DNA from: Candidatus Cloacimonadota bacterium
GTDB lineage: Bacteria; Cloacimonadota; Cloacimonadia; Cloacimonadales; TCS61
Direction: 5' to 3'
Length of the DNA stretch: 42,673 nt
Assembly (NCBI GenBank): GCA_021735645.1
Contig: JAIPGP010000023.1
Span: 1 to 42,673 of the forward strand
Each line of letters begins with the position of its first letter. Positions within the stretch are counted from its first letter, which is position 1. This document shows positions 27,708-31,989 of the stretch, one piece after another. The notes below the pieces were generated by a model that was given only the letters and a program-made list of their open reading frames with translations, was not told where the DNA came from and did no database searches. The translations under genes and the position numbers were made by a program.

Positions 27708-30185
27708 TTATTTTGCCACAATAGATACCAGTTTATTAGGCACTACAATAATTTTTTTCACAGTTTTGCCTTCCAGATGTTTCTGGACATTCTCATTTTT
27801 CAAAGCTTCGGCTTTTATCTCTTCGATACCGGTATTTAACGGCACCTCGATCTTTCCACGCACCTTACCCATGATCTGGATTACATAGGTGATTTCATCT
27901 TTAACCAGATATTTTGCTTCAAATACCGGTAAGCCGGCTTCATGAAGTAATTCACTATTTCCGGTCAACTGCCAGAGCTCTTCACTGATATGCGGGGCAA
28001 AACAATACAATGCCTGAGGTATCTTACGGCAGGATTCTGCATATACACTTTGTTCATCCTGATTAAGTTTGCCTGCATCACCGATTCCATATATATTATT
28101 CAAATGCTCCATGATAGCAGCAATAGCAGTATTGAATTGTAATCTGTCCTCAATATCATGCAATACCTTCCAAACAGTAAAATGTGTACTGTATCGCAGC
28201 TGCTTCACTTTCTCAGATAGATTGGCTTCATTATATTCATCAGCCGCATCTCTGATTAATTCCAGATTATCATCAAATATACGCCAGACCCTGTTTAAAA
28301 ACCGAAATGCGCCTTTCACCCCGGTATCACTCCATTCCGAGTCCTTCTCCGGTGGTGAACCAAATAGCATAAATAACCTCACTGTATCAGAACCAAATCG
28401 ATCTATTATATATTGCGGATCTACCACATTACCCTTACTCTTAGACATCTTAGCTCCGTCTTTAGTAACCATTCCCTGCGTCAGCAACCGGGCAAAAGGC
28501 TCATCACAACTCACCATTCCTATATCACGCATGAATTTATGAAAAAACCTGGCATATAGCAGGTGCATGCAGGCATGCTCTATTCCACCTATATACTGGT
28601 CAACCGGCAGCCATTGGTCTGCTGCGGCTTTGCTGAACGGTTCTTCCGTATTAGCTGTGTCCGTGTAACGCGCATAATACCAGGAGCTGTCCACAAAGGT
28701 ATCCATTGTATCGGTTTCCCGTCTGGCTTCTCCCCCACATTTCGGGCAGGTTGTATGCACCCACTCTTCTACGCTTAGTAAAGGATTACTGGTGGTTTTG
28801 CCTAATTGCACATTATCTGGTAATAATACCGGCAAATCCTCATCAGGCACCAGCACTTCCCCACACTTCTGGCAATAGATCACCGGTATGGGATTTCCCC
28901 AGTAACGCTGACGGCTTACGCCCCAGTCGCGCAGACGATAGGTGACTGTGCTTTCTCCCATATTATTTTTAGACATCCAGGCTGATATGGCAGATTTGCT
29001 TTCCACACTATCCATTTCGTCAAACTGTGACGAATTTACTAATATTCCTGGCTCAACGTAGGCTTCTGTCATCTCAGCTAAAACCAGGTTCTGTTCCTCA
29101 TTCTGAATTACGATCTTCATCGGTATATTATATTTACGGGCAAATTCAAAATCTCGCTGATCATGGGCTGGCACTGCCATCACTGCCCCGGTTCCATAAT
29201 CCATCAGTACATAATTTGTGATCCAGATTTGTACTTTTGCTCCATTAACTGGATTCAGGCAGTCTCTGCCACTGTATATTCCCTTCTTGGTCGTATCTTC
29301 TGCTGTCCGCATAATTTTATCTTCATTCATCACTTCTTCACAGAATTCCTGCATCTCTCTTGATACATCAGATTCTTTTAACCATCTGGATACAAGCGGA
29401 TGCTCCGGTGGTATCGCCATAAATGTACAGCCAAATATTGTATCCGGTCTGGTAGTGAATACTGATAAAATCTCGCCATTTTCTATTAACTTGAAATCTA
29501 TGCGAGTGCCTTCACTTCTGCCTATCCAGTTCTTCTGCATCGTGATAACGCGTTCGGGCCAGTCTTTCACTCCACTGAAATCTAAAAGTTGCTCAGCATA
29601 ATCTGTAATCTTAAAAAACCACTGCTCCAGTTCCTTCTGCCTTACTACTTTACCACAACGCCAGCAATTCCCCTCTTCTACCTGCTCATTTGCCAGCACT
29701 GTCTGGCAGTCTTCACACCAGTTCACAAATGATTTTCTCTTGTAAGCCAGTCCTTCTTCATATAACCGCTTAAAAAACCACTGTCCCCAGCGGTAATAGT
29801 CCGGTCGGCAGGTGCTTACTTCTCTATCCCAGTTAAGTCCAAATCCCATGGAATTAAATTGTCCCCGCATAATTTCTATGTTTTCTTCGGTTGTGATTTT
29901 GGGGTGTGAATTATGCTTTATGGCATAATTCTCTGCCGGCATGCCAAAGGCATCATAACCCATGGGCTGCATCACATTATAACCCTGCATCTTTTTATAG
30001 CGGGTGATGGCATCACCAATGGAATAATTGCTCACATGACCCATGTGCAATGCCCCACTGGGATAAGGAAACATACTCAATACGTAATAAGTCTCCTTTT
30101 CGCTGTCAGTTATGGTTTTAAAAACCTCTTTTTCCTGCCAGATTTTCTGCCATTTCTGCTCTATTTGTATAAAAGGATATTCCAT
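27708..30185 (-). CDS. leuS: Leucyl-tRNA synthetase
   Basis: An 825-residue class I synthetase. The HIGH motif appears in FPYPSGALHMGHVSNYSIGD near 35-54, a zinc-type CEDCQ/CWRC pair near 160-178, the editing-domain TTRPDTIFG and GTGAVMAVPAHDQRD, and KMSKSKGNVVDP near 580. The C-terminal anticodon domain ends normally. AGGAG precedes the ATG by 8 bases. A leucine-rich leader ORF lies 55 bases upstream (30241-30309) and may control expression. Confidence 0.97.
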   Translation of the reverse strand: MEYPFIQIEQKWQKIWQEKEVFKTITDSEKETYYVLSMFPYPSGALHMGHVSNYSIGDAITRYKKMQGYNVMQPMGYDAFGMPAENYAIKHNSHPKITTEENIEIMRGQFNSMGFGLNWDREVSTCRPDYYRWGQWFFKRLYEEGLAYKRKSFVNWCEDCQTVLANEQVEEGNCWRCGKVVRQKELEQWFFKITDYAEQLLDFSGVKDWPERVITMQKNWIGRSEGTRIDFKLIENGEILSVFTTRPDTIFGCTFMAIPPEHPLVSRWLKESDVSREMQEFCEEVMNEDKIMRTAEDTTKKGIYSGRDCLNPVNGAKVQIWITNYVLMDYGTGAVMAVPAHDQRDFEFARKYNIPMKIVIQNEEQNLVLAEMTEAYVEPGILVNSSQFDEMDSVESKSAISAWMSKNNMGESTVTYRLRDWGVSRQRYWGNPIPVIYCQKCGEVLVPDEDLPVLLPDNVQLGKTTSNPLLSVEEWVHTTCPKCGGEARRETDTMDTFVDSSWYYARYTDTANTEEPFSKAAADQWLPVDQYIGGIEHACMHLLYARFFHKFMRDIGMVSCDEPFARLLTQGMVTKDGAKMSKSKGNVVDPQYIIDRFGSDTVRLFMLFGSPPEKDSEWSDTGVKGAFRFLNRVWRIFDDNLELIRDAADEYNEANLSEKVKQLRYSTHFTVWKVLHDIEDRLQFNTAIAAIMEHLNNIYGIGDAGKLNQDEQSVYAESCRKIPQALYCFAPHISEELWQLTGNSELLHEAGLPVFEAKYLVKDEITYVIQIMGKVRGKIEVPLNTGIEEIKAEALKNENVQKHLEGKTVKKIIVVPNKLVSIVAK

Positions 30186-30240
30186 CTATATTTCTCCTGT
30201 ATATTTTATTTTTTGTCTTTGATGATTTGTGTTATCCCCC

Positions 30241-30309
30241 TCAGGGGAGTAAAAGCAGCAGGATTCTGGCTATAATTATTCTCTCAGCTCTAAACATCTT
30301 TTTCTTCAT
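30241..30309 (-). CDS. Putative leucine-rich leader peptide of leuS
   Basis: A 22-codon ORF on the minus strand: ATG at 30309, TGA at 30243-30241, preceded by GGAG with a 7-base spacer. It encodes MKKKMFRAERIIIARI, then five consecutive Leu codons (CTG CTG CTT TTA CTC), then Pro and stop. It lies 55 bases upstream of leuS in the same direction. The stop codon is inside a small hairpin CCCC-TGA-GGGG. GCAGGA of its own ribosome site can pair with TCCTGC just before the Leu run, and CTCC/CCTG near the stop can pair with the CAGGAG of leuS. The layout fits leader-peptide attenuation by leucyl-tRNA supply. No U-run follows the hairpin, so any control may be translational. A chance ORF is possible at this length. 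Confidence 0.6.
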   Translation of the reverse strand: MKKKMFRAERIIIARILLLLLP

Positions 30310-30549
30310 AATACATCTCCTGCATAATTTGTGTACAAAACTCTAAATCCAATCAGATCGGTCAAATACTTTTATTTATGTACTAAGTCAAATGTGCACC
30401 GCCGGGTATTTTCAGGGACGCAGATGACGACCATTAACCACTAAATTCCGGTACATATTATTTTCTCAGGACGAATTTTAGAATAAGTCAAATTATTGGT
30501 CGTAGTTCTCGCACCACTTCCAGAGTACTGTTAGCGGGGCAAGTCCTAC
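30310..30549 (-). promoter_or_regulatory. Gene-free region upstream of the leuS leader
   Basis: About 240 bases between the lipoprotein stop and the leuS leader. It must hold the leuS promoter. TTGGAT and AATTAT 17 bases apart on the minus strand (about 30321-30350) are a weak candidate ending close to the leader ribosome site. I see no further ORF, repeat or strong hairpin. Confidence 0.3.
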
Positions 30550-31989
30550 TTAACTACTAACCACTTCAAATCCGATAACCTTACCGGTATATTTGATCTC
30601 TGCTCCATCAGTTTTATAATCAATGAACTCATTGAACTTCTCTTTTGTGCCGGGATATAATTCTCCGATTATTACTGTCTTATCTATCCGGTTTGTCCCT
30701 TTCTTACCTGACAAGGTTAATTGAATAGAGATATTTTTATAAATCTTTCTGGTGGGATTTGAGATCACTCCTTCAATAGTGACGCTGCCATTCCCCTGCA
30801 CCAGGTTCAATTCAGATAATTCCAGTTTACTAAGATCATACTCAAATTTCCTCAAATTCATTTTTTTTAAATCCGCATTGCTTAAACTTCCCTTCAGCTC
30901 ATTAAATACCGCATTAGCTTCCAGTTCATTATCCATCTCCAGATAAGATTCCCATAATTGCTTTTTGCTGGAAAGAGAAAGATCTTCTATTTGCCGTAAA
31001 CTGCTGATCGCCACTCCAAAACGTTTATTTTTGTACGCTAGTTTTCCCAGTTCCAGATTTAATTTATCCCGCTCATATTTGTCCTGCTCCTGATTTACTA
31101 TTTTACTCATTGCTGCCAGTCCACTATCCACATCACCTTCTCTTATTGCCAGCCTTGACAGCATCAGAAGTATATGCCTGTTTACCGTAACACTGATATT
31201 CCTGGCTAATAGCTGGTTCAAAGCGGCTTCATTATACTCTTTAATATGAGTATCCAACGACCTGTAGATAAAGATACTATCCGCATAAAGACTAAACTCC
31301 GGGTACTTTGCCTTAAATTCACCCAGACGGTCTATTTGCAACTCGATATTCCCACTAACTCCTGCCTTCCCAGTGAATACCTGCTGCAGAACTTTCAATC
31401 CGGCTAATTCTGTTTCGGGATATTTCAAGAGCAGTGAATTGAGTTTGTTTAAATCAAGATCAATACAATAATTATTTTCAGCATAAATATTCCAGAACTC
31501 GGCATTATCTGCCAATTCTCCTGCTCCATTACGAACTATGTTAATTATTTTTGGCAGATCTGCTGCTGCGGCACTATCATCCTGATATTTCATCCGATAA
31601 AATTCATAAGTAAGAAGAAAGTAATATTCTCTCTCTATATCCGCATTCCAGACTCCTTTTTTCCCCAATTTCTCTAATATCTCCTGATATTGCCGGAATT
31701 CAGTCATGGCGTTAACGGGAAACAAATTCCATTCAGCTTCCAGTGGTGATCGATATTTTCTCACATCCCAGGTAGGATAATACTCCTTTCTAAATGACAA
31801 TGCCAAAAGAACATTGCTCTCACTGTCCTGGGCATTATCTGCCAGCTTAGCGTTCAATAATTTCCGCGCTTTCGCAAATTCTCCTTTATCTATTAATCCT
31901 TTTATATCGTTACCTTTAGATATATCGCATCCCATAATGATCAATATCACGATCACTGAAAGCAATACAATTCTTCTGATACCCTGCAT
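30550..31989 (-). CDS. TPR-like lipoprotein, function unknown
   Basis: A 479-residue protein with a lipoprotein signal: a basic start, a hydrophobic helix and the lipobox IIMGC with Cys21. The mature part begins with helical pairs (LIDKGEFAKARKLLNAKLADNAQDSESNVLLALSF) like tetratricopeptide repeats. Further helical repeats run to about residue 380, and the C-terminal 100 residues are beta-rich, VTIEGVISNPTRKIYKNISIQLTL, resembling a FxLYD-type domain. It is expected to sit in the cell envelope and bind proteins. AAGGAG precedes the ATG. It is monocistronic on present evidence. Confidence 0.75.
   Translation of the reverse strand: MQGIRRIVLLSVIVILIIMGCDISKGNDIKGLIDKGEFAKARKLLNAKLADNAQDSESNVLLALSFRKEYYPTWDVRKYRSPLEAEWNLFPVNAMTEFRQYQEILEKLGKKGVWNADIEREYYFLLTYEFYRMKYQDDSAAAADLPKIINIVRNGAGELADNAEFWNIYAENNYCIDLDLNKLNSLLLKYPETELAGLKVLQQVFTGKAGVSGNIELQIDRLGEFKAKYPEFSLYADSIFIYRSLDTHIKEYNEAALNQLLARNISVTVNRHILLMLSRLAIREGDVDSGLAAMSKIVNQEQDKYERDKLNLELGKLAYKNKRFGVAISSLRQIEDLSLSSKKQLWESYLEMDNELEANAVFNELKGSLSNADLKKMNLRKFEYDLSKLELSELNLVQGNGSVTIEGVISNPTRKIYKNISIQLTLSGKKGTNRIDKTVIIGELYPGTKEKFNEFIDYKTDGAEIKYTGKVIGFEVVSS

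Follow-up and report, generated by a model that had tools for sequence, protein, structure and literature searches.

The enterobacterial attenuators pheM-pheST and leuL/ilvL combine leader peptides rich in the cognate amino acid with transcription terminators, and in translational attenuation of the ermC type, an antibiotic stalls the ribosome on the leader, which exposes the Shine-Dalgarno (SD) sequence of the next gene. For leuS, the gene for leucyl-tRNA synthetase, upstream leader attenuators have been predicted in Streptomyces (PMC1262725), where the LeuL2 peptide reads MRAVRLLLSEPR (PMC8079986). For the LEU element of actinobacterial leuA, a Leu run has been proposed to pair with the leuA SD, although codon mutants of this element departed from what classical attenuation demands (PMC1262725). 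The ilv-leu attenuator peptide of Staphylococcus aureus displays an Ile run followed by Leu codons in a short leader (PMC5794164). Here, we explore a leader preceding leuS in the bacterial phylum Cloacimonadota, which apparently is an undescribed, terminator-less variant of known leader-peptide control. Our literature search found no paper linking Cloacimonadota with leader peptides; leuS leader attenuators as such are published for Streptomyces, but we found none for this phylum. The locus would provide a case of a synthetase gene controlled by a leader peptide in a phylum for which we found none described before.

Like the Streptomyces leuS attenuators and LeuL2, the Cloacimonadota leader places a short ORF containing a Leu run immediately ahead of leuS. 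However, the Streptomyces systems employ a terminator hairpin together with an antiterminator hairpin, and their leader transcript is itself leaderless, whereas the ORF in this different phylum is SD-led, terminator-less and accompanied by a conserved UCCCC/GGGGA hairpin at its stop codon. With the LEU element it shares the lack of a terminator and the proposed pairing of the Leu run with the SD of the regulated gene, but the LEU element lies upstream of leuA and contains a conserved pseudoknot, in contrast to leuS, a simple hairpin and a predicted competition with the leader SD in Cloacimonadota. The caution raised by the LEU codon mutants applies to the Cloacimonadota leader too. The enterobacterial leaders are similarly rich in the cognate amino acid but, unlike those described here, rely on transcription terminators. 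The S. aureus peptide looks similar to the IIIARILLLLL end of the leader analysed here, but belongs to a biosynthetic operon with a terminator, and the Ile run is not conserved in relatives of our genome. Finally, leader stalling that frees a downstream SD, as suggested here by constrained folding, is reminiscent of ermC, with hungry Leu codons presumably taking the place of the antibiotic.

The window, i.e., the entire 42,673-nt stretch of DNA analysed, belongs to a Candidatus Stygibacter-like Cloacimonadota genome, its closest named relative being Candidatus Stygibacter frigidus (85% LeuS identity). Its leuS encodes a full bacterial LeuS, with the Pfam LeuS domains and a TIGR00396 score of 1060 bits, above the cut-off, and is followed on the same strand by queA and a biotin ligase gene (Table 1). 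Translation of the leader interval confirmed the annotated 22-codon ORF, which ends with five Leu residues specified by four different codons, Pro and TGA, 55 bases from leuS, and a good ribosome binding site, also as annotated, lies ahead of it. Further upstream of leuS (30550-31989, minus strand), the window encodes a 479-aa protein with only a weak TPR match.

Table 1. Features of the leuS leader region (positions in the window)
Feature	Position	Strand	Details
Predicted promoter	30335..30365	minus	TTGACC 30365-30360 and TTTTGT-like element ~30340-30335, Bacteroidota-like spacing
Leader SD, AGGAG	30321-30317	minus	also predicted to pair with Leu codons (GCAGGA/UCCUGC)
Leader peptide ORF	30309..30241	minus	22 aa, MKKKMFRAERIIIARILLLLLP*; stop 55 nt before leuS start
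UCCUG(C), complementary to both SDs	30263-30258	minus	formed by Leu codons and preceding ATC
Five Leu codons, CTG CTG CTT TTA CTC	30247..30261	minus	proposed sensor and anti-SD
Hairpin UCCCC-UGAG-GGGGA	30235..30248	minus	holds leader stop codon; conserved in 31/32
leuS SD, AGGAG	30194..30198	minus	from sequence and alignment
leuS, leucyl-tRNA synthetase	27708..30185	minus	825 aa; first gene of leuS-queA-birA-like string

We located leuS in 104 of 125 Cloacimonadota genomes and read the DNA upstream. Of the genomes analysed, 32 carry the leader ahead of leuS: 30 belong to family f1, one to f5 and one to f7, so that the leader spans 15 genera of the window's family and one genome of each of two other families; a partial locus (L248, genome G018) represents a 33rd leader-bearing genome. 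It is absent from two f1 genomes (G009 and G029) and, in the other families, from about 60 leuS genes. On the LeuS tree, leader presence is strongly clustered (7 label changes against a shuffled mean of 13.8). Three labels scored as leaderless (G030, G031 and G035) are leuS genes cut at the 5′ end; in G030 and G031, the leader is present on another contig. The distribution is as expected for vertical inheritance with losses.

The element shared by the 32 genomes consists of an SD-led short ORF leading into [Leu]n-TTR-CTC-CCC, a loop and GGGGA, with CTG replacing TTR once and CCT replacing CCC once. Alignment of the upstream regions recovered the short ORF and its Leu-Leu-Pro end in 32/32, as well as the hairpin, but neither the five-Leu run nor the register of SD pairing as conserved traits. 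The TTRCTCCCC-N2-6-GGGG pattern occurs at leuS and elsewhere mostly within palindromic repeats in a few genomes; apart from these repeats and a few single matches, the element was not found at other genes, so that it is practically leuS-specific. The palindromic repeats themselves, CTCCCC-N5-GGGGAG (e.g., L209, L210 and L252), are dispersed, G005 carrying about 20 copies, G006 45 and G023 9, are rare in most relatives, and appear unrelated to the leuS leader. Within the genus, no analogous leaders were seen ahead of valS, ileS and pheS, which sit closely behind other genes. One genome, G001, carries pheS twice (contigs C191 and C213), reflecting either a duplicate or an assembly or strain mixture. 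In other phyla, Leu-run ORFs near leuS are merely scattered and unconvincing.

Several features argue that the ORF is translated. Frame 0 is open over 18 codons in all 32 leaders, compared with 13 and 9 for the other frames, and the 30 leaders with an SD and ATG all start in the frame of CTC CCC and span 18-27 codons, their lengths differing by whole codons; the remaining two apparently start with TTG or GTG. The body of the peptide varies freely even between close pairs of genomes, so that the peptide product itself is unlikely to matter. Conversely, Leu is invariant at codon -1 (TTA, TTG or CTG) and frequent at codons -2 (25/32), -3 (17/32, via CTT, CTC, CTG or CTA) and -4 (14/32), against a share of 6% in the leader body. 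At least two tandem Leu codons are found in all 32 leaders. The run comprises 2, 3, 4 and 5 Leu in 7, 9, 9 and 7 sequences, respectively; the two nearest genomes, of the same genus, have a run of only two (PVLLP). Among Leu codons, CTC is used least in the long ORFs of the window (7.4 per thousand versus 26.9 for CTG), and both the hairpin and coding place constraints on the CTC CCC pair. Taken together, the conserved frame, SD, Leu-Leu-Pro end, hairpin and position, along with the promoter-like motif upstream, make a genuine leader peptide, as initially proposed, well supported by comparison, the five-Leu run of the window being one state of a run of 2-5.

The UCCCC/GGGGA stem is retained in 31 of the 32 leaders, the exception, L130, having UCCC-UUCG-GGGA, and in the window has an energy of about -8 kcal/mol. 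In relatives, the position of the stop codon ranges from the hairpin loop, through the beginning of the 3′ arm, to immediately beyond this arm. Covariation cannot prove the stem because it hardly varies, and consensus folding of the whole leader, which covered nested structures only, recovered this hairpin alone. The overall folding energy of the window leader is ordinary (z 0.07). Among the small hairpins annotated initially, that at the stop codon stands; the leader SD is paired, with the Leu codons, in the predicted fold; the leuS SD hairpin is not favoured in free RNA, this SD being already open in the naked window RNA (0.84-0.86 unpaired). No intrinsic terminator (a hairpin with a U tract) was detected in the window or any of the 32 leaders, and no credible Rfam or T-box match in the window region or six relatives.

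Constrained folding of 28 leaders, with a crude model of the ribosome footprint, points to competition between the two SDs for the Leu run. In naked RNA, the run is predicted to pair with the leader SD (mean 0.59). With the leader SD and start occupied, the leuS SD is computed to be free at 0.17 and paired with the Leu run at 0.55, whereas a ribosome parked on the Leu codons raises the free fraction to 0.57. In the window, where the CAGGA of the leuS SD can pair with the same UCCUG as the leader SD, the corresponding free values are 0.84 for naked RNA, 0.08 with the leader start occupied and 0.93 with stalling on Leu. The 0.55 pairing exceeds that of shuffled Leu runs (0.29, p=3e-4) and of runs swapped between species (0.40, p=0.03), p-values to be read as support rather than proof because they assume independence of the species and because the condition was selected once weaker tests had been run. 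The first comparison of own and swapped SD/Leu-run duplexes was weak (p 0.03-0.11), occlusion of the leuS SD in naked RNA is no greater than in dinucleotide-shuffled leaders (0.31 vs 0.30), and unless occupation of the leader SD is assumed, the switch does not appear. Some pairing with SDs comes with any Leu run because of its pyrimidine richness; the pairing register is not constant across species; and several relatives (L112, L130, L133, L135 and L136) show no clear switch. Pairing of CUCCCC with the leuS SD was considered and rejected (~0.04) because the local hairpin wins.

We propose that the translated leader acts as a sensor of charged Leu-tRNA through which leuS is controlled, translation initiation being the most likely step, a reading that we favour while holding its chances to be evenly balanced. 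Transcription would start about 20 nt upstream of the leader, and the Leu-codon run would act both as sensor and as anti-SD. When Leu-tRNA is plentiful, the run would be mostly free behind each passing ribosome and pair with the leuS SD, so that leuS is held down; when Leu-tRNA is short, ribosomes would stall on the Leu codons and cover the anti-SD, leaving the leuS SD exposed. The UCCCC/GGGGA hairpin beside the run would keep the adjacent CUCCCC off the leuS SD and mark the end point of the leader ribosome. The competition between SDs is a computed feature of this scheme, and it is by inference that ribosomes stall and that leuS responds to leucine in the stated direction. Somewhat more tentatively, the leaders of this uncultured phylum could constitute a leader-RNA family not described before, namely, a terminator-less, translation-level Leu-tRNA sensor in which one Leu run switches between the leader SD and the leuS SD next to a conserved insulating hairpin. 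If the switch holds, the same codons perform amino-acid sensing and SD masking, a very economical design; if true, it could recur wherever Leu codons, which are natural anti-SDs, precede a gene, and searches based on terminators would miss such leaders.

Alternatively, and with clearly lower probability, the target of leader-peptide control could be transcription or the stability of the mRNA instead of the leuS SD, with the leader ribosome setting Rho-dependent termination or RNase access. Such control would fit the conservation of the leader but not of the pairing register, is compatible with the failure to find an intrinsic terminator, and could involve the C/U-rich stretch at the end of the leader ORF, a counterpart of which adjoins the stop codon of tnaC. 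However, the 40-106 nt that separate leuS from the leader stop are rich in A and poor in C and do not resemble a rut site, and the computed SD switch exceeds its controls. Slightly less probable still is that LeuS or another protein binds the conserved core as an RNA hairpin, with the ORF incidental or merely delivering ribosomes: TTACTCCCC and the hairpin are indeed conserved at the nucleotide level, synonymous sites included, and the Leu run varies in length, but all 32 leaders preserve the frame together with SD and start despite drift of the body sequence, and Leu is retained via different codons. The initial annotation invoked the logic of amino-acid leader attenuation known from leu and ilv operons and pheST. 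For classical transcription attenuation by terminator and antiterminator, as in leuABCD, ilv, pheST or Streptomyces leuS, speaks that a leader with cognate codons precedes a synthetase gene; nevertheless, with a terminator-like hairpin and U tract in neither the window nor any of the 32 leaders, it is very improbable, and a translation-level mechanism appears to fit better. A chance ORF, compatible with the unconserved peptide body, is refuted by the 30/30 in-frame starts, the 32/32 open frames and a leuS-specific element in 15 genera of the family and two further families, and retains a negligible probability.

A leuA gene (TIGR00973) was not found in 122 of 123 Cloacimonadota genomes searched, nor in the window's genus; only G026 has one, with no obvious leader seen. 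With leuA in 1/123 genomes, leucine is presumably imported and leuS would be an obvious target for the proposed sensing of Leu-tRNA, and the pattern suggests phylum-wide dependence on imported leucine. The leader probably lets the cell make more LeuS when charged leucine-tRNA runs short. A specific tie of the leader to the lack of leuA was rejected, leuA being missing phylum-wide.

The upstream motif places the expected transcription start near 30330. TTGACC is present in 31 of the 32 leader-bearing genomes, and TTGAC followed by TTTGC at 25-26 nt is likewise present ahead of leuS genes that lack the leader, in these cases mostly at a distance of 53-97 nt from leuS. More generally, the TTGAC(A/C)-N20-TTTGC motif shared by leuS upstream regions throughout the phylum is similar to the -33/-7 promoter of Bacteroidota, of the TTTG/TAnnTTTG type also employed in published work, and may serve to predict transcription starts in Cloacimonadota.
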